From positions 3,348,001 through 3,412,000 of the forward strand of contig CM007991.1 of the NCBI GenBank assembly GCA_002189035.1: a DNA stretch of 64,000 bases. The letters are read 5' to 3'. Of this stretch, positions 8,686-42,572 are shown one piece after another (positions within the stretch are counted from its first letter, which is position 1; each line of letters starts with the position of its first letter). The position numbers were made by a program, and so were the translations under genes. The notes under the pieces were generated by a model. That model was not told the DNA's origin and searched no databases. It worked only from the letters and a program-made list of their open reading frames with translations. The DNA is from Utricularia gibba. Lineage: Eukaryota > Streptophyta > Magnoliopsida > Lamiales > Lentibulariaceae.

Positions 8686-9954
8686 TCACATGATGGAGCA
8701 GCCATTGGGATTCTCATCACTGAAGTAGTAGTCGCATCTGCTGCGTCGCTCTCGGATTGGGACTGGGACCTTCTCGGACGCATATCCATAGTCATACACG
8801 TACCCTTCGTATTGGGGCTGCGGCGGATCCGGAGCCCCGAAACCGTACCCGTGAGTGCACGGGCCGCCCCCGTATCCGTTGTAGCATTCCATGCAGCAGT
8901 TTCTCCTGTCCGGACCCCAGGAGCCGAAACCTTGATAACATGGGCCTCCGCCGTGTCCGTGATAGCACTCGGTGCAGCATGTTCCCCATGGTCTCGGGTA
9001 CCCGCTTACGAAATCCGGATATGGGTATGGATCCGGATCGGGATCCTTCTCTGGTTTTTCAACTACCACAACCGGGGGTGGTTCAGGGTCCTTGGGTGGC
9101 TCGACCACCACGACCACAGGTTCAGGATCCCTTTCAGGTTCAATAACCACAACTGGGGAGGTTCAGGGTCCTTGGGTGGCTTGAACACCACGACCACCGG
9201 TTCAGGCTCCTTTGGCGGTTCAGGAACCATCACAACAACTTGAGGCTCAGGCTCGTTGGGTGGCTCGGGAACCACCACCACAACTGGCGCCTCCGGCTCC
9301 TGGGGTGGTTCTAGAATCACCTCCGCAACCGGTGGCTCCGGCTCTGGTTCAGACTCTTCCTGTGGCTCCGGAACAACCAAGATAACCGGAGGTTCAGGCT
9401 CTTGCGGTGGCTCGGGAACCACAACAACAACCGGTGGTTCAGGCTCCTTGGGTGGTTCCACTATGACCACCTTCTTTTTTGGCTTTTTAGGCTCCGGTTC
9501 AGGATCTTTGATCAGAATGCTCTTGATGACATTAGAACCTTTGCAACACAATTTATCTCGAATTCCCTCAGGATCGCAGCAGAAAACGGAGATGGTAATC
9601 GTGTTCGCCTTTTCATCGAACACCTGGTCTCTGATTTCTTTCGTCCACAACACATTTTTTCAACAGGAAAGAAAAAAAGAGAACCAACCTCAGTCGACTC
9701 CAATCAAAATAACTCTCCCTTCAAGAACAGGGGATCACGCACCACCCCCATAACTATACACAGAAGCAGAGAAGAAACTCACGGGGAAATCTGCTGAGGA
9801 TCTTCTTAACCTTCTTGTAGCATGTAACGCACTGGAGATCAACCTTGAGAACCATCGTCGTCATCCTCTGAAACCACAATTAAAAAAAAATCACCCTCTG
9901 ATTGACTGAAAAACAAAAAACCAAGAATCATGTCACAGCTACCTTGTACGCCAT
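8686..9954 (-). CDS. Heavy-metal-associated isoprenylated plant protein (HIPP), Pro-rich (one-base frame break)
   Basis: Three exons: 9943–9954 (MAYK), 9783–9867, 8686–9637. The HMA domain starts with MVLKVDLQCVTCYKKVKK, with the metal-binding CxxC at residues 17–20, and continues FPQIRDQVFDEKANT across the second splice. A long central region is built from repeats of the type EPPxEPEPPVVVVVPEPP. The tail is rich in Cys, Gly and Tyr. The last four residues, CSIM, form a CaaX box, so farnesylation and membrane attachment are expected. Family role: heavy-metal binding and stress or plasmodesmal functions. Phase arithmetic (952 nt in exon 3 where 953 is needed) and the switch of open frame place a missing base in the GGGG run at 9155–9158. 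With it restored the protein would be about 349 residues. Without it, the tail and CaaX box are lost. Confidence 0.82.
9063..9500 (-). repeat. Degenerate minisatellite coding the Pro/Glu/Val repeats of the HIPP gene
   Basis: Units of roughly 45–54 nt, each starting with a variant of GGTTCAGGCTCC on the plus strand, repeat about nine times. In the protein they give alternating acidic proline blocks (PEPPxEPEP) and valine runs (VVVVV). Such arrays change copy number easily, which may also explain the frame break near 9155. Confidence 0.75.
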
Positions 9955-25695: not shown

Positions 25696-26103
25696 AATCT
25701 AGTGTTTGTGCCCAAATTTCACACATATTTGAGTTGCAGGGCACTGTTTTCTTGGTGGCTGGTTTGAAATGAAACAAACTCTTCATCCATTGAACTTGAA
25801 CAAATATGCTATCGGCATTGAAATCATGGAAAACGAGGAATGGAGTTGATACAAAATGATTATAATGAGACAATGGAAAGCGAGGAGTGGAGTTGTTTGC
25901 ACATATTTATGCATGGTAGCAGAGTTTGTTTATAGTTTTCAAGTGCATCAAAGATGAATAAAGAGCTGATTCCATTTCAAATCATTAGCAGACCACACAA
26001 CACACATTGCGGTCTTCTCTTATTGCAACAACTGAAGTACACAAATGCATCACGAGCAGGAGACGAAATAACTTAAAAACTCCCGCCAGTTCTTGCGTTC
26101 AGC
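25696..26103. other. 3' flanks of two convergent genes
   Basis: The left half is the 3' untranslated region of the WAV3-type gene. The right half is that of the first repeat-peptide gene, including a stretch also found next to the other two copies (CCACACAACACACATTG near 25993). Confidence 0.55.
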
Positions 26104-26430
26104 TCATCGGTTGGCGACCTCAAAGGGGGCGGAGGGAGAGCGAGGACGACCGGAGTTGGGGTAGACCACCTCAAATGGAGCCGAGGGAGAGCGAGGACGG
26201 CCGGAGTTGGGGTGGACCACCTCAAATGGAGCCGAGGGAGAGCGAGGACGGCCGGAGTTGGGGTGGACCACCTCAAATGGAGCTGAGGGAGAGCGAGGAC
26301 GGCCGGAGTTGGGGTGGACCACCTCAAAGGGAGCTGAGGGAGAGCGAGGACGGGTGGAATAACCAGGAGAAACGAAGAGGGCGACAACTAGGAGAAAGGC
26401 AAGAAATGCGAGTGCTCCTCTGGAAGCCAT
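26104..26430 (-). CDS. Small secreted protein with five tandem Pro/Ser/Arg repeats, copy 1
   Basis: Uninterrupted 108-residue frame. Residues 1–25 (MASRGALAFLAFLLVVALF…) are a clear signal peptide. The remainder is five head-to-tail units of RPRSPSAPFEVVHPNSG, the last one truncated to RPRSPSAPFEVANR. There are no cysteines in the mature part and no membrane segment. The DNA unit is 51 nt with only a few changes between units, so the array is young or kept uniform. A TATA box lies 55 bp upstream of the start, as in the other two copies. I do not recognise the family. It could be a precursor for several copies of a short peptide, or a small Pro-rich wall protein. The paired strand is also open over this region, which is a shadow of the repeat. 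Confidence 0.7.
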   Translation of the reverse strand: MASRGALAFLAFLLVVALFVSPGYSTRPRSPSAPFEVVHPNSGRPRSPSAPFEVVHPNSGRPRSPSAPFEVVHPNSGRPRSPSAPFEVVYPNSGRPRSPSAPFEVANR

Positions 26431-26484
26431 ATTCAGAATCTAGTAGTTATGGTTTTGCATGGATTGGAGTAGAATCGATGGCCA

Positions 26485-26490
26485 TTTATA
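26485..26490 (-). promoter_or_regulatory. TATA box of repeat-peptide gene copy 1
   Basis: CCTATAAATGG on the minus strand, 55 bp before the start codon. The surrounding 80 bp are nearly identical to the promoter of copy 3 and clearly related to that of copy 2. Confidence 0.6.
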
Positions 26491-27616
26491 GGATGACACC
26501 ATGTCCAAATTCGTTGTACAAAAAATGGCCGATCAGAGGGAAGTCTACGCAGGGGGCGGACGGCTACCAGACGTTTCGATCTTCACACACATTCGAGAAC
26601 GTGCGAAGAAAAGTCCAAGTGCCCGCTGCCTCGTCACCCATGAGCAATATACATAATTTTTTTCTATATTGTTAGATAAATTAAACTAAAAACTAGATAA
26701 ATTAGGCTAATATAAAGTCCAATTAAACCAATGAGAAATATTTTAAACCTTGTTTGATTTTATTTTTTAATTATCACAATTTGAAAAATATTGTATTAAA
26801 ATTAAATGATGCATGAAGTCATCATTTACTTAAGTGATCTCTTTAAGGACCGAATGCTCCCGAGGCAATGCATATAATCGTATCGAAAACTCCAAATTTT
26901 ACGTCATTTCATCATACTCGTATGTTTTGAAAAAAAAATTGCATTGACATCAAAATGGGATTCCCGAACCGCGTCCTACTGATCATTTATTAAGATACTA
27001 AATACTGGATAAATTGGGTTAATATATAGTCCGATTAAAGCACTGGGGAGGGTAAAAGAAAGACAAGTTTCACATGCCGCGGGAGCCTTATGCTTTCCTT
27101 TCCCGGCGGTTATTAGAAAGAAAGAATTGTGCACATGTTTTGGAATACAAAAAAATAAGTATTTAATAATTAATGTGTGAGTTTGTGGGTCCCATCCCCG
27201 ATTCAGTGAACCGTAGTCATTGGAAAAAAGAATTGAAAAAGAAGCATGGTGGGCGGTGAGAGAATGCCGACGTCCGTCCATCAAACTCCTGGGTGTATTC
27301 CTCGGTCCCAATCCCATAAAAAGAAATGGCGGCTGGAAATGGAATAATTTCTTCACGTTTATTGGGGTTGATTTTTTTTAAAAAAAATTCTGAATGCGTT
27401 GGAGCAGTTGGGGTTTCTGCGTGAGGTTGCAATGGGGATGGATTTGTACCTTGGATTCACAACGCAGAAGTCGCGCGAAAGTGCCCCCGCTGGCTGCACA
27501 GCACATACGGGATGGTTTCTTTATTTGAAAGGGAGTAAAAACAGGCAACATAAGTAGAGGATAGAAGAGCTCCGACGCCTGCCGGATCGGCCCTCAGGTT
27601 TCAGCTCCAGCCTCCG

Positions 27617-28080
27617 TCAGTTGTTGATGTCGCTGCCGGGATGCCCGGGGCGCTTAGCTTGGCCGACGCCATGGCTGATTCTGCCGAGGATGGTGGCCTC
27701 CTCACCTTTTTTCACTGACTCAAAGCAACAATATCGCCAATAAGAAGAAATCCATGATACATCGGCAAAAAAGGAAAGCCATAGCCTTCATTGTATCACC
27801 ATGCTCAACCAAGCCGGGATGCCCGGGGCGCTTAGCTTGGCCGACGCCATGGCTGATTCTCCCAAGCTCGGCGGTCTCTTCACCCTTTTTCACTAAAAAA
27901 ACGTATCATTAAAATTAACACCGCAAACCATTGGTTAAATACCCCCCATAACCAAAACTACTGGTTACATGCATCCATGGAGTTGAGGTCAAAGCCCTCC
28001 GCAGTGTCTCTACCAGCAGCAACTTCAAGAGAAACCAGGAGAGCAGCAACTAGGAGAAAGGCGACTACTTTGGAAGCCAT
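27617..28080 (-). CDS. Small secreted peptide gene with two alternative 3' exons
   Basis: Exon 1 (27969–28080) codes MASKVVAFLLVAALLVSLEV, a signal peptide, then a short acidic propeptide. A GT–AG intron of 76 bp leads in phase to exon 2a (27720–27892), which reads LKKGEETAELG then GRISHGVGQAKRPGHPG and runs on to a stop at 27720 (94 residues). A second copy, exon 2b (27617–27714), has its own AG acceptor in the same phase and ends RPGHPGSDINN before a stop (69 residues). The two exons code nearly the same core, so they look like mutually exclusive or spare exons. Exon 2b probably shows the ancestral end, because the decayed copy at 31060 also ends RPGHPGSDISN. The hydrophobic tail of exon 2a is read-through of intron sequence. 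A TATA box lies 47 bp upstream. Family not recognised; the basic, Gly/Pro-rich end resembles a processed peptide hormone only in style. Confidence 0.6.
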
Positions 28081-28126
28081 ATCTGTATCTTAAAGCTTGT
28101 GTGGATTTGAGAGGACTCCCGCAGGC

Positions 28127-28136
28127 TCTTATAGAT
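28127..28136 (-). promoter_or_regulatory. TATA box of the two-exon peptide gene
   Basis: TATCTATAAGAG on the minus strand about 47 bp before the start codon at 28080, a normal plant distance allowing for a short leader. Confidence 0.5.
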
Positions 28137-28150
28137 ACGAGACCCTAAAC

Positions 28151-29690
28151 AGTAGCATTTGAAGATACAGAACCATGTCACCATTTGAATGAACCAATGG
28201 AATGGATCCCACAGCTGCTAAAGGAACCGTCCAGATACACAGATGAGCTGACAACACTCCAACCCTCTCGCTCTTAGGTTGGATCGCCCACTAGCCGGGA
28301 GAAGCTGGATTCAGCTTAAGATCAACACCTGTCCCGATTTCCAGATCGCTAAACACCTGTCCATGTTTTCGGATATGGACGATAAATCAGCATACTATTT
28401 GCTATTTCGGTTTTTGTTGTTCGCTGTAGTTGATGAGATCTCCCAAGTTGGATCCACGCAAAGCCGCCCACGAAAATTATTGCATGTTGCCAAAACGGAC
28501 GGTGGCGTGAGAGGATTTCGGATGAGTGATAAAAATGATCATTCTAAATAAAATAATACGAGATTTCATAATTTTCCAAAATAAAATTGTTTTATTTTAT
28601 CATAATTTATCGTTATGTTTTTATTTAACAATATCTTTTTGTAGGCGTTGCACTCAACTTTTTTTATAATCATCTTCATTATAAAAATATTTACAAATAA
28701 TTTTTTTTTCTAAATTAAACGAATATCAACAAAATCATCATAGTTATTTTCAATTATTTTATACTACAAAGAATAGTAATTCCATCTTTATCTTTAATGG
28801 ATCCAATATATTGATGAATTCAAAATTATTTCCCAAGAGTTTATTTTTATTCATTTAAAAAAGAGAAAAAGAAAGAATAGTACATCAACTTTAAAAACCG
28901 AATTAATAAAAATAAATTATCCTTCAGCATGGAAATTCGAATGGGCTTGGTTGGGATATTTTGGGCAGGACTAGATTGAGGTTTTGGGCTCGATAGTGTT
29001 GGGCCTTGCTAGATGGGCTGGAAGAAGCCCGGCAAGCGGCCGAGGCATCGATGGGGCGCCGACAGGGATGGCCGGGGAAGCTCCACCGGTGGACAGGCTC
29101 CGGTGTAGATACAGTGGCGGTAACGCAGCGACGGAGGATCGGGTGACGATCGAGAAGTCAACAGCGGAGGGCGGCGCGGCGGGGGAGAGCTCAGGCGACG
29201 GTATCAATGGGAGTAAACTTGTGTTTTTAAATATAATTGAGGATTTTCAAGGCAATCTTCTCCAATTCGAATTCCAACACTATCTCGGCATCGAAATCAG
29301 AAACGCAAGGATGATGGCGAAATATTTAAATTTAATGTGGATAATAATACAGATAATAATGACGTAAAAATGAGGATGAATATTATGTGGAGGATAGAGA
29401 CTGTATTGAAAAATATTTAAATTTAAAATAAAAAAATTATGTATTGATAGATAAATTTTTGGAGTATTTTTTTTTTAATTCCATAGGGGTTCCATCTTGA
29501 AATCATACAGTTTTGATTACAGAATCTCGAAATGGAAAGGGTTATATGGTTTTGGTTCCAACTACGAGTTTGATTCGAATTGATCGAATAATTAATTTGG
29601 AATAAATTGTATTTATTAACTTTATTTACATTTTGAAATATGCTAAAAATTCTTTAAATTTTAAAATATTTAAAACACAACTGAAGATGG
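28151..29690. other. AT-rich spacer between modules
   Basis: Mostly AT-rich and without a gene. An isolated GC-rich block at 28980–29220 has an open frame rich in Gly, Ala and Arg (starting 28984) with no recognisable domain; it may be a captured gene fragment. A CAG run lies at 29777–29794 just to the right. Confidence 0.5.
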
Positions 29691-29843
29691 GATTCCATTT
29701 GAGATCACGTGGCAGACCAGACGACGCACATAAACACACTGTCGTCTTCCCTTGTTATTCCAGCAACTGAATTATGCAGCAGCAGCAGCAGCAGTAGACG
29801 AGACGATATAACTTGAAAACTCCACCGGTTCTTGGGGTTCAGC

Positions 29844-30203
29844 TCATGGGTTGGCGACCTCATGGGGAGCGGAGGGGGAACGGGGACGGTTGTTGGGGTA
29901 GATCACCTCATGGGGAGCGGAGGGAGAGCGAGGACGGAGGTTGGGGAGGATCACCTCATGGGGAGCGGAGGGAGAGCGAGGACGGAGGTTGGGGAGGATC
30001 AGCTCATGGGGAGCGGAGGGGAACGGGGACGGTTGTTGGGGTAGATCACCTCATGGGGAGCGGAGGGGAACGGGGACGGTTGTTGGGTAGATCACCTCAT
30101 GGGGAGCGGAGGGGGAACGGGGACGGTTGGAATAACCAGGAGAAATGAGGAGGGCGATGAGTAGGAGAAAGGCAGCGCAGGCGAGTGCTCCTCTGGAAGC
30201 CAT
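29844..30203 (-). pseudogene. Small secreted repeat protein, copy 2 (frame broken within the repeats)
   Basis: Start at 30203 with signal peptide MASRGALACAAFLLLIALLI. The first repeat reads RPRSPSAPHEV. Units here are 48 nt (16 residues), unlike the 51 nt of copy 1. Successive units from 29859 measure 48, 48, 48, 47 and 46 nt. Two missing bases in one unit shift the frame and give a stop at 30051, leaving about 50 residues. One more missing base in the next unit brings the frame back, and the original end (…EVANP, stop at 29844) is still present. The missing bases fall in G runs (GGG for GGGG, GGGG for GGGGG). Because the losses sum to three, the gene may be intact in reality and the breaks due to consensus error; otherwise it is a young pseudogene. 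TATA box at 30260–30265. Confidence 0.6.
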
Positions 30204-30259
30204 CTTCACACTCCCTCCACTAGTTAAGCAGCTTCAATGGAATGGAATGGAGGGGCCTT

Positions 30260-30265
30260 TTTATA
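30260..30265 (-). promoter_or_regulatory. TATA box of repeat-peptide gene copy 2
   Basis: CTATAAAAAGG on the minus strand, 57 bp before the start at 30203. The downstream promoter context (AAAGTCTACGCAGGCGGG upstream of it) is shared with copies 1 and 3. Confidence 0.55.
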
Positions 30266-31059
30266 GAGGGATGGCATGTCCAAGTTCATTGTATCAAAAT
30301 GGGGGATCGGAGAAAAGTCTACGCAGGCGGGCTGACGATGACGAGACGTTTCACTCGTCATACACTTCTGAGCACATGTGGCTGGAGATAAGAGGCAAAG
30401 GCCAAGCCCCGCTGCCGGATGTTCATAATTGCTGCAATCATTCATCGCTGCTGTGCTTTATCTAGAAACCTTACCTCCAAAAATTTCACACATGATCACG
30501 TTTCTAAATCTCAGACAAGTTATTTATGAGGTCTAAAACAATATTAGACCAGTTAAATTGGGTTAAGATGTTGTCGAATTGAAGCAGTGGGGAGGGTCCA
30601 AGAACGGTAAGTTTCACATGGCGCCGCAAATCTCAACTTTCCTTTCCCGGCGGTTGATCTCATGTTTCCGGGTATAAGAAGTGATTGATTAATTAATTAA
30701 TGCGTGCGGGGCCCACACGAGACAGTGGACCCGAGTCACGGGAAGGAGAAAAAAAAAGAAGCTGTGGAAACGTCGGGAAGGAGAAAAAAAAAGAAGCTGT
30801 GGAAAGGTCGCTGGAAATGGAATAATTTCTTCCCGTTTATTTGGGTTGATATTTCCTTGATTTTTTTTTCTAAATTCCGAATGCGTTGGAGCAGTTGGGG
30901 TTTCTGCGTGAGGTTGAGGACTGGTTGCATTGGGGAAATGCACAGCAGATACGGGTTGGTTTCTTTATTTGAAAGGGAGTAAAACAGGCAACATAAATAG
31001 TGGATAGAAAAGCTCCGACGCCTTCTGGATCGGCTCTCTGGTTTCAGCTCCACCCTCCG

Positions 31060-31717
31060 TCAGTTGCTGATGTCGCTGCCGGGATGCCCGGGGCGCTTAG
31101 CTTGGCCGACGCCACGGCTGATGGTGGCCTCCTCACCCTTTTTCACTAAAAAAAAAGGGGGTATCATTAAAATAAATATACGATGATAGCACTTGTTGAT
31201 GTGTGTGTTTTTGGTGATGCTGAGCATAAAACGAATGATGTATAGCCTTTTGTTCTTGGTATTGAGAAGATCTTTGATTGAAAACAGGCTCCTATTTTTT
31301 AAGTTGATTACAGGTATTTATACAGTCAGATTTACAACGGCAGCCTATACACTAGGAATTAACCGTTGTGGTTGCTGTAGACATCAAGCTTAGGGCCTTG
31401 GATAATCATGTGACTTGGTTGCTGGATCAACCTTGAGAGCCCATTTACTTGATTTTCGGTCCAATATGATAATTCCAAGTTCGTGTTGTACTCTTTTCTT
31501 CCTCTTGCCTCCTCCCGTCGTTTTCCTCATTTCAGCATCCGATTTTTCAGAGTTTCTTTCAGAATGCTGCTGACTCACCTTTTGTTCATCCTTAACCATC
31601 ATCATACGACACCAATGTCCAAATACCCTCATGTATAGAATGATAAAACAAAACTACTGGTTGCATTCATCCACGGAGTTGGGAAATAAGGAAAAAGGCG
31701 ACTACTTTGGAAGCAAT
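31060..31717 (-). pseudogene. Decayed copy of the two-exon peptide gene
   Basis: The second exon (31060–31145) is intact: after an AG acceptor it reads LKKGEEATISRGVGQAKRPG then HPGSDISN and a stop. It lacks 12 nt in frame relative to the copy at 27617. Exon 1 (about 31650–31717) has lost its start (ATG to ATT at 31715–31717) and most of its middle, but keeps GCTTCCAAAGTAGTCGCC. The intron carries an insertion of about 457 bp (31189–31645). The gene is therefore dead, although the peptide-coding end stayed open. Confidence 0.62.
31189..31645. mobile_element. Insertion of unknown type in the peptide-gene intron
   Basis: Relative to the same intron in copy 1 this locus has about 457 extra bases. 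They are bracketed by ATGATA at 31183–31188 and 31640–31645, a candidate target-site duplication. The insert has a minus-strand open frame (31390–31632) rich in Lys, Glu and Ser that I do not recognise. It could be a solo LTR or a small non-autonomous element. Confidence 0.4.
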
Positions 31718-33029
31718 CTCATCCCACCAATTTCATGCATGCCAAAGAACGATTATGTACTAGTAAAAACTAATGGTTGATGATGAATCAATTTTAAGCA
31801 ATCTCATCCGACCTGCCATGAACTCAGAGCTGCTGCTGGAACACATCGCGTGCAATGAGGAAGAGGGAAGAAGCCGTGAGATGAAGACATAAAATCAATG
31901 GGTTAAAATATTGGGCCTGCGATGCATGGGTTTGCAACAATAAGCCCGAAGGCCAAACCTATGTCTAAAGAGCAACCCAAACCAGACCGGCCCGACTACT
32001 GAACAACAATAACCTGCAACACTAATGCAAATCTATATCCTAGTTCCCACACCCGGTGCGCAAGTGTGGGGAATTTGCTGCACATTCGTTGTACGGTGAG
32101 TTTTTTTTTTTTTTAAAAAAACTATTTAATCAAATTCCAACTCATTCACTTGATTTTTCATATTTTAGTTCATATTCATCAATCGATTATTCAATCATCA
32201 TCATCATCATCCACCATTTAAATTACGATGATCATCATTTATAGATTATCGTTTTAATTTTCATTTGTTTTTTTTAATATTGATTTTTTTATTTGAAATT
32301 TATATTTCTAGATTTATGAATTTGATGCTATGATATCTTTAAATTGTTAATTATTTAATTCTAATCTATTTATGTTTACTTATTATTTGATCATGATTAT
32401 ATAAATATATTTTGTTTTTGGTAACAATGACATAAATAATGTATGAAAATTTATTTTCAAAATGCACATACTCCATACAATATATTTTTCATTAATTTTT
32501 TAGTTAAAAATTATTTTAATTTAGTATTTTTTTTAAAAAATAATAATAATATAACTTAAATATAATATTATAGGAAGGAAGGGATGGAATAATTCCAGGT
32601 GGTATAATACAATTTTATCCTTCTTTAATATTATATTACGATCTTCATGATTTTTTTCACCTCATTTTCGATAATTCCCATTCTTTCAAATAATTATTCC
32701 TTCTACAACCTTCTTTACTATTTGTTCAAATAAATTGATATTCGATGCGTATTTTGAAAAAGATGTATGTTTTCAATCATGATTTATTTAAAAGAATATG
32801 ATAATCCAACGCATTTTATACCATATTTTTTACTTATCAAACTAAATATGATATTTAAAATGCTTTTTTTATTTAATTATATCCATTTTCTATCTAATAT
32901 TCTTATTAAAATATTTCTTGGTATATCAAATTTTCCTAAAACAAATACACCCTAAGTGTATTTATATATTTTTACTATATTACTAATAACGTCAAGTGTA
33001 TGAAAGATGAATAAAAGAGCTGAACTGAT
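31718..33029. other. AT-rich spacer between modules 2 and 3
   Basis: No supported gene. 32100–32960 is very AT-rich with a CAT/ATC microsatellite at about 32197–32212. Open frames here are low-complexity Ile/Phe/Tyr strings. Confidence 0.6.
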
Positions 33030-33175
33030 TTTATTTCAAATCATGTGGCAGACCACACACACAACACAGACATTGTGGTCTTTCCTTCTTATTCCAACGA
33101 CAACTGAACTGCAAATGCAGAACGAGAAGCAGCACACAAAATAACTTGAAAACCCCACCAGTTCTTGGGTTCAGC

Positions 33176-33385
33176 TCATGGGTCAGCGACCTCAAAGGCG
33201 GCGGAGGGAGAGCGAGGACGGCCGGAGTTGGGGTAGGCAACTGAGTGAGATGGAGGGCGGCCGGCATTTGGGTAGACTAACTCACGGGGAAAGGATGGGG
33301 AAGGAGGGCGGGAATAACTAGGAGAAATGAGGAGGGCGACAAGCAGGAGAAAGGCAGCAAAGGCGAGTACTCCTCTGGAAGCCAT
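33176..33385 (-). CDS. Small secreted repeat protein, copy 3 (short)
   Basis: Uninterrupted 69-residue frame. The signal peptide (MASRGVLAFAAFLLLVALLI) matches copies 1 and 2. Only about two and a half repeats remain: RPPSPSFPRELVYPNAG, then RPPSHSVAYPNSG, then RPRSPSAAFEVADP. The units are more diverged than in copy 1, and the array was contracted. The frame and end (EVAxx, stop) are kept. The TATA box at 33440–33445 is 55 bp upstream. Function unknown, as for copy 1. Confidence 0.65.
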   Translation of the reverse strand: MASRGVLAFAAFLLLVALLISPSYSRPPSPSFPRELVYPNAGRPPSHSVAYPNSGRPRSPSAAFEVADP

Positions 33386-33439
33386 CTTCAGAATCTACTA
33401 GTTAAGCTTTTGCATGGATTGGAGTAAAATCGGTGGCCA

Positions 33440-33445
33440 TTTATA
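33440..33445 (-). promoter_or_regulatory. TATA box of repeat-peptide gene copy 3
   Basis: CCTATAAATGG on the minus strand, same sequence and spacing as copy 1. Confidence 0.6.
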
Positions 33446-33930
33446 GGATGACACCATGTCAAATTCATACTATCAAAAATGGCCGATCAGAGGGAAAGTC
33501 TACACAGGCGGGCGGGCGGGCGGCTACACATTCCAGCACGGCAGCACGTGAGATGAAATATCCAAGGCCCGCTTAGCCAAACTCAGTTAAAATGGAAAAA
33601 AAAAAAAGGTTTCTGACATAGTTGCTTTGAGCATTTCTCGTCAGTGAAAAGGCGGCTGGGAATGGATTAGTTTCTCCCTCACGTTTATTCCCGTTGATGC
33701 TTTCTTGAAGTTTTGTTTTTAATTTGGAATGAATTGGAGCAGGCGGCGTTTCTGCGTGAGGTTTGAGGACTGGTTGCAATGGGGATGGAATGTACTTTGG
33801 ATTCAGATCGCACAAGTACCTCCCTGACTTGACTGCCCACACCGGGTGGTTTCTTTATCTGAAAGGGATAAAAAACAGGCAATAGAAGTAGTGGATAGAA
33901 GAGCTCCGACGCAGCCCGCAGATTTAGCTC

Positions 33931-41379: not shown

Positions 41380-42572
41380 ATGGGACAGATGACGCTGCCG
41401 CCGGGGTTCCGGTTCCATCCGACTGACGAGGAGCTTGTTGCGTACTACCTCTACCGTAAAGTCACTGGCCGGAAAATTGAAATTGACGTGATCCCGGAGG
41501 TTGATCTCTACAAATGCGAACCCTGGGACTTGCCAGGTACGTGAAGACTGGTTGTTGATCCCAGTTCACGGGTTTCAAGGAGTTTGTCAATTCTGGTTTT
41601 ACGTTTTCCGGTAGATAAATCTTTCTTGCCGAGCAAGGATTTGGAATGGTACTTTTACAGTCCCCGAGATCGGAAGTACCCGAACGGCTCGCGAACAAAT
41701 CGGGCGACGAGGTCTGGTTATTGGAAAGCCACCGGAAAAGATCGGGCCGTTGAGTCGGGGAAACGGACAGTGGGGATGAAGAAAACTCTGGTTTACTATC
41801 GCGGGAGAGCACCCAACGGAATCCGTACAGATTGGGTTATGCACGAGTACCGCCTCGCCGCCGATTCTCCTTCCGTCCGTTTCCTCTTTTTTTCCTCCCC
41901 GAATTTTATCATCTGCTCGATTTCAATACTCTGACTTCCGATTTCGATTCAGGATTCGTACGCTCTGTGCCGCGTTTTTAAGAAAAACATAGCGATGACC
42001 AATGACGTAGAAGCCAGCGCCGCCGCAGTAAAAATCACCGAAACTACACCCACCACCACGCCGGAGATGAGTGCCAGTAACTTCTCCCTGGAATCGCCTT
42101 TCACCCAGGTGAAAATCTACCTAAATTTCACCATCCCGGTCCCAGGAATGATCCCGGTTTGGATTTTCTCCCTTCCACAACATGATTCTCGTTTCATCTT
42201 TCCGTAAAGCTTCTGGGGCCCATCCGCTTTCTCCTTCTCCTTCTCCTTCTTCTTTGCGACTCTCGATGACTTCTTTTGACTGCCTAAATTCTCGCCATTT
42301 CTCCTTCTCCTTCTCCTTCTTCTTTGCGACTCTCGATGACTTCTTTTGACTGCCTAAATTCTCTTTCCGCCATATTTCTGCAATATTTTCTTTCCCGCTT
42401 TTTTCAATAAAAGAATAAACACAAATTTAATCTTTTTTTAATTTTAAAATTCTTGCAGGATCGGTACGAGACGGTGACGACGGTGGAGGAGTTTCCACTA
42501 GTAGAGTATGAAAATATAGGGTTGGAGGAGATATTTTCCCTTCCTCCTTCCCACGAATTCTTCTTACATTGA
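41380..42572 (+). CDS. NAC-domain transcription factor
   Basis: Four exons: 41380–41536, 41615–41874, 41953–42108, 42459–42572; 228 residues. All five NAC subdomains are present. A is [20 protein letters not shown] is [21 protein letters not shown] is [20 protein letters not shown] then [17 protein letters not shown] is [17 protein letters not shown] then WVMHEYRL, and E is [12 protein letters not shown]. Introns sit at the usual NAC positions. The C-terminal part is short (about 90 residues), Thr/Ser-rich, and ends with an acidic and aromatic stretch ([20 protein letters not shown]) that could activate transcription. The domain resembles the NAC045/086 and ANAC071/096 neighbourhoods; I cannot decide which. 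The gene lies on the plus strand ahead of DUF620. Confidence 0.9.
42228..42368 (+). repeat. Two-copy tandem duplication (period 70 bp) in NAC intron 3
   Basis: CTCCTTCTCCTTCTCC… to TGACTGCCTAAATTCTC occurs twice with an exact 70-bp offset (42231 and 42301). The copies are nearly identical, so the duplication is recent. It lengthens a pyrimidine-rich intron and does not touch the exons. Confidence 0.9.

Follow-up and report, generated by a model that had tools for sequence, protein, structure and literature searches.

What a tandem array of small genes in Utricularia gibba encodes is the question raised by a 64-kb stretch of its genome (the window; assembly GCA_002189035.1, contig CM007991.1, positions 3,348,001 to 3,412,000). 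The predicted products combine a signal peptide (SP) with short proline-, serine- and arginine-rich repeats, and may be peptide precursors, structural proteins of the cell wall or by-products of duplicating DNA. The reading favoured here, tentatively and as possible rather than probable, is a young, lineage-restricted tandem cluster for small secreted proteins that would act as multi-unit peptide precursors belonging to no known family. Coordinates are positions within the window unless a contig is named, and searches covered the 100-Mb genome of the same species.

Tandem modules and their repeat proteins

Three direct copies of a module lie on the minus strand between 25.98 and 33.93 kb, each comprising a repeat gene with a second gene, or its remains, upstream (Table 1). 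The repeat gene consists of a TATA box, a short 5' leader, the SP and a Pro/Ser/Arg-rich repeat; units of type RPRSPSAPFEVVHPNSG are present in all three modules, and the repeat gene has no intron. About three such copies within 8 kb had been proposed in the first-pass annotation, and direct repeats, tandem arrays and open reading frames (ORFs) bear this out: a 162-nt SP repeat family at 26347, 30120 and 33302, far above chance, a 142-nt family at 27538 and 30981 (93% identity), and Tandem Repeats Finder scores of 418 (51-nt unit, 4.6 copies) and 412 (48-nt unit, 5.7 copies). The differences in repeat number and unit length that it described are likewise real: copy A has four 51-nt units and a last unit (GRPRSPSAPFEVVHPNS), in copy C units measuring 51 and 39 nt precede a last unit, and in copy B the unit starts are spaced 47, 47, 47, 48 and 48 nt, plus a last unit. 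Its account of a second gene dead once and missing once was also correct, the gene being complete at 27617-28080, damaged by deletion near 31650-31717 and left with only its 3' end at 33819-33912. A TATA box does stand upstream of each gene, but the reported 55-57 bp corresponds to the end of the box, which starts at -60, -62 and -60 in A, B and C and at -53 in the second gene.

Table 1. Features of the cluster, in window coordinates; a slash within a sequence motif marks the splice point.
Feature	Position	Strand	Description
Copy A, repeat gene	26104..26430	-	Intact 108-aa ORF; SP 26356-26430 and five RPRSPSAPFEV units of 17 aa
TATA box of copy A	26485..26490	-	TATAAA
Copy B, repeat gene	29846..30203	-	About six 16-aa units, frame-broken; ORF 30051-30203
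TATA box of copy B	30260..30265	-	TATAAA
Copy C, repeat gene	33176..33385	-	Intact 69-aa ORF; SP 33311-33385 and three irregular units (17, 13, 14 aa)
TATA box of copy C	33440..33445	-	TATAAA
Second gene, exon 1	27969..28080	-	SP and GRDTAEGFDLNSMDA; phase-1 donor GCAT/GTAA; part after SP homologous to GRP exon 1
Second gene, exon 2a	27800..27892	-	KKGEETAELGRISHGVGQAKRPGHPG...; 93 nt, phase 1-1 if donor CATG/GTGATA used
Second gene, exon 2b	27617..27714	-	KKGEEATILGRISHGVGQAKRPGHPGSDINN and stop; duplicate of exon 2a
TATA-like box of second gene	28128..28133	-	TATAAG
3' untranslated region (UTR) and AATAAA region of second gene	27495..27600	-	Three occurrences in cluster
Dead exon 1 of second gene, module B	31650..31717	-	ATG to TTG, internal deletion, donor GT to GC; by eye against 27960-28080
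Exon 2 and 3'UTR remnant of second gene, module B	30939..31147	-	Direct-repeat families
3'UTR-only remnant of second gene, module C	33819..33912	-	Direct-repeat family

In A and C every unit length is divisible by three. Copy B as assembled encodes the SP and one unit, since three one-base losses in runs of C (net -3) bring the last units back into frame with a stop after 50 aa in between. These losses may be mutations or consensus errors, and errors are plausible because the frame also seems to be broken in another C-rich repeat gene of the window (8686-9659). This Pro-Glu-Pro repeat gene lies on the minus strand, appears to be HMA-like and to have a CaaX-type end (CSIM), and contains two frames within its repeat that overlap at 9063-9162, which hints at consensus errors or a pseudogene.

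Regarding the predicted proteins, the intact ORFs A and C have an SP-like N-terminus with a 12-residue hydropathy maximum of 3.2-3.3 and G/S-Y-S at positions -3 to -1, the SP being assigned from these properties and a predicted helix; for copy A, AlphaFold places a helix only at residues 3-20 and predicts disorder for the remainder. The mature part has 44-83 residues with 23-25% Pro and 16-17% Ser, a pI of 10-12 and no cysteine, and carries repeated units with a conserved core. No match to the repeat domain was found in Pfam, NCBIfam, PDB sequences or a literature-string search, and these searches likewise gave nothing usable for the mature part of the second gene. The mature domains thus appear undescribed within these collections, which hold no plant proteomes.

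Three further copies of the repeat gene, D, E and F, were detected, all on contig C4 (1920732, 2082933 and 2129035), which also carries a rearranged second gene (1911104-1911968). Each has one unit, all three have lost the TATA/promoter stretch, and their homology begins at the expected transcription start; D and F have a common frameshift directly after the start codon, while a 38-aa frame is intact in E. A retrocopy origin was considered from the position at which the homology starts and was rejected, as the similarity between F and B extends past the 3'UTR and there is no poly-A tract. An AT-rich element, CATTGG.TTAATTGGACT.TATATTA.CC.AATTTATCTAGT, occurs upstream of D, E and F and at window positions 26681-26767 and 26990-27037, with several tandem occurrences, and it may have driven promoter deletion or duplication.

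Possible constraint on the repeat unit

Copies A, B and C together hold 14 units. In their first eight codons, the RPxSPSAP core, the minimal changes number 10 synonymous and five non-synonymous, where 33% would be expected to be synonymous (p=0.008), whereas in the tail (codons 9-15) the same units give 6:11 (p 0.15-0.34, not significant). No other positive evidence points to constraint at the protein level, and this contrast is modest; a synonymous excess in the core only is what would be expected if an epitope were maintained while the spacer was free to vary. Several observations weigh against a peptide precursor. The p-values of this contrast are modest and uncorrected, and assume that each change is an independent event; the dN/dS of the SP is about 0.5-1 or more with few changes and is uninformative; the units are joined without dibasic or other recognised cleavage sites; and four of the six repeat-gene copies are broken or promoterless. 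Furthermore, A and C are as alike in promoter and UTR as they are in coding sequence (promoter 90%, SP 88%, last codons 90%, 3'UTR 86% identity), so that the earlier description of conserved coding parts among diverged spacers is only partly right.

Such observations are also what would be expected if GC-rich, repeat-bearing pieces of a glycine-rich protein (GRP) locus were undergoing neutral birth and death, with frames staying open in part through unit lengths divisible by three and with no selected protein function. We consider this unlikely. It would account for the broken frame of B, the broken starts of D and F, the promoterless state of D, E and F and the dead or missing second gene in two modules, as well as for noncoding DNA being as similar as coding DNA, for the absence of the cluster from its sister block (below) and for the long open frames that also occur on the strand opposite to the array. 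It leaves the synonymous excess in the core unexplained, and it fits poorly with the intact SP of A, B and C, in which only conservative hydrophobic replacements occur, and with a frame in C held through several length changes.

A peptide-precursor role would combine the following steps. Duplication of the two-gene module and gain or loss of in-frame units, built on the promoter/SP end of a GRP-type gene, would have enlarged the cluster; the repeat gene would encode a pre-pro-peptide whose SP is cut between GYS and TRPR; prolines in S-P, A-P and R-P contexts may be hydroxylated and glycosylated; and cleavage between the units would release from the disordered basic chain several peptides of about 15 residues with the core RPxSPSAP, which would act in the apoplast at a dose set by unit number. 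Transcription, secretion, modification, cleavage and a receptor or target of the products are here predictions from sequence. By analogy, the kept core, loose tail, variable unit number and secretory signal would be best matched by multi-copy peptide precursors.

Among these, tomato pre-pro-HypSys (146 aa) yields peptides of 18, 15 and 15 aa in the apoplast, and HypSys precursors of Solanaceae and Convolvulaceae resemble the repeat proteins as small SP-bearing pre-pro-proteins with several Pro/Ser-rich units of 15-18 aa (PMC11371470). The units here differ in being near-identical and head-to-tail, without PPSP-type runs, and in belonging to a taxonomically distant plant; HypSys was absent from the Pfam and NCBIfam output for the window proteins, with no comparison made to HypSys precursors themselves. 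The PROSCOOP genes of Brassicaceae are clustered and lineage-restricted, and some have two motifs (PMC6382344); they share with the present cluster small secreted precursors without cysteine and a motif that is not C-terminal and is duplicated in some members (PMC6382344), but have another motif, whereas the genes here are of GRP-type origin and carry five units in tandem. Some CLE precursors contain several domains (PMC2254619), and multi-domain CLE and CEP precursors similarly hold repeated peptide units and spacers in one secreted precursor (PMC2254619), but their motifs are absent here. The LEED..PEED proteins of Medicago have acidic domains and nodule expression, in contrast to the basic Pro-rich units of this cluster. 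None of the signatures of HypSys, PROSCOOP or CLE is present in the repeat proteins.

It is very improbable that the repeat gene is a divergent member of a known peptide-hormone family (IDA, CLE, CEP, PIP, HypSys or SCOOP). The PSAP core is also found in IDA. An SP, a cysteine-free mature part and multi-copy units rich in S, G and P, as in the SGP-rich group (PMC6382344), would suit such a membership, but there was no Pfam or NCBIfam match, and by inspection of the translations the C-terminal signatures are all absent: the proteins end in EVANR, EVADP and FANP in place of the single C-terminal RHN/KHN motif of IDA/IDL, and the CLE, CEP and PIP motifs (HN/HH end; PGHSPGVGH-like; SGPS..G.GH) are lacking.

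Common signal-peptide DNA and GRP ancestry

The promoter, leader and SP region of A and C resembles that of the second gene (z 17 and 13 against dinucleotide shuffles). Because signal peptides are alike in composition, a further control was used in which each codon was swapped for a random synonym at window codon usage (2000 replicates); the SP DNA of A, B and C scored 46-58 against the second gene, resampled maxima were 40-52, and 0 of 2000 replicates reached the observed score, a likeness greater than similar protein sequences would account for. The 5' leader alone is weak (z 1.4-2.3), and the evidence for a common origin therefore comes from the SP DNA, which could owe its similarity to gene conversion between neighbours instead of descent.

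In the second gene, the part of exon 1 after the SP matches six GRP genes on contigs C402 and C505 (z 4.1-13.9), the intron lies at the phase-1 position of GRP genes, after DA (GATGCAT/GTAA), and the start of exon 2 resembles two of the C402 genes (z 4.4-4.7). With the Pfam GRP model (PF07172) the second gene scores 14.6 bits against a cut-off of 30, which one C402 gene passes with 31.3, and the repeat gene has no match. As this model includes the signal peptide and has yielded false positives (PMC2912341), its match was not relied on alone, and codon resampling and the post-signal comparison served in its place. From the post-signal match, the intron position, the exon-2 start and the Pfam scores we infer that the second gene is a descendant of GRP-type (PF07172-like) genes which has lost the glycine-rich part. 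It shares with the tandem GRP genes of C402 (1.50-1.56 Mb) and C505 the SP, the post-signal stretch ending in DA, the intron site and the exon-2 start, whereas the repeat gene resembles them only via the SP DNA it has in common with the second gene; neither type is glycine-rich, and the repeat gene differs further in its RPRSPSAP units and lack of an intron. The common SP DNA, together with the GRP exon and splice site of the second gene, argues that both gene types belong to a single paralogous group in which the mature parts were replaced. By eye, the 3'UTR of the repeat gene also looked homologous to the 3' end of GRP genes (AAGAACTGG.GGGG), but the scores did not reach significance (z no higher than 2.9 and mostly about 0-1). 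On C402 (1501322-1516045; L014, L015 and L017), the glycine arrays of tandem GRP genes as assembled enter other GGN-repeat frames, with Val/Glu- or Trp/Arg-rich tails; these frame changes are either assembly slips or a real route to new mature parts.

The view of the first-pass annotation that the cluster holds two unrecognised families is thus not upheld, and its term possibly undescribed holds for the mature part. The intact SP-bearing ORFs, birth-and-death duplication, absence from the C414 block and the synonymous excess in the core do support a family of small, rapidly evolving secreted peptides.

GRP genes are cell-wall related (PMC2912341), and because of this ancestry the main rival is that the products are unprocessed structural or glycoprotein wall components, namely small proline-rich proteins in place of a glycine-rich wall protein with the repeats as glycosylated spacer. 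This is rather unlikely in our view, although the second gene groups with GRP genes and has SP DNA in common with the repeat gene, and although the Pro and Ser content, the S-P and A-P dipeptides, the variable repeat number and the predicted disorder would all be compatible with it. The mature proteins are, however, very short; SPPPP, YXY, PPVYK and long AP/SP runs are absent by inspection, and the units hold only single S-P steps under the definition given in PMC4769139; the units of C are irregular and E has a single unit; and the constraint lies in the core and not in the tail.

Exon 2 of the second gene is present in two copies 178 bp apart. The donor of exon 2a (CATG/GTGATA) was placed by eye and the 93-nt reading was made by hand, the computed placement being one base off; if spliced in this way, exon 2a would be phase-neutral and the protein would contain KKGEExxxLGRISHGVGQAKRPGHPG twice. 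The exon 2 core (AGCCATGGCGTCGGCCAAGCTAAGCGCCCCGGGCATCCCGGC; 27635-27911) is near-identical in all copies, synonymous sites included, and more so than its flanks, owing to recent conversion or to DNA-level constraint.

Age of the cluster and the duplicated block

The window between 23.6 and 60.2 kb (23617-60199) is collinear with contig C414 at 1527-1542 kb, in blocks of 67-93% identity, and C414 evidently carries the whole-genome-duplication (WGD) partner. The interval from the RING-VWA gene to the next gene is 8.7 kb in the window and about 330 bp in C414, from which the cluster is absent, which points to either a gain in the window or a complete loss from C414. C4 was rejected as the syntenic partner, since the closest paralogue of the neighbouring RING-VWA gene is on C414 (83%). 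The C3-C4 copies are 77-91% identical, noncoding DNA included, so that the C3-C4 dispersal looks younger than the WGD.

A more far-reaching version of the precursor reading, quite unlikely as a whole, would see here a new plant peptide-signal family that arose after the WGD by exchange of a GRP mature part for tandem RPxSPSAP units, the sister gene having independently become a precursor with the duplicated exon. Many small secreted proteins encoded in plant genomes lack annotation, and the birth of new peptide ligands is poorly documented. If expressed, the cluster would be a compact example of a wall-protein signal exon recruited for new, repetitive mature parts, in which intact, damaged and single-unit stages can be compared directly and whose absence from the sister block is dated; without expression, it would show the ease with which such arrays mimic peptide precursors.

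Within the collinear block, the window side is several kb longer in more than one interval, and at 42228-42363 the window contains a perfect 70-bp CT-rich tandem duplication that is evidently very recent.

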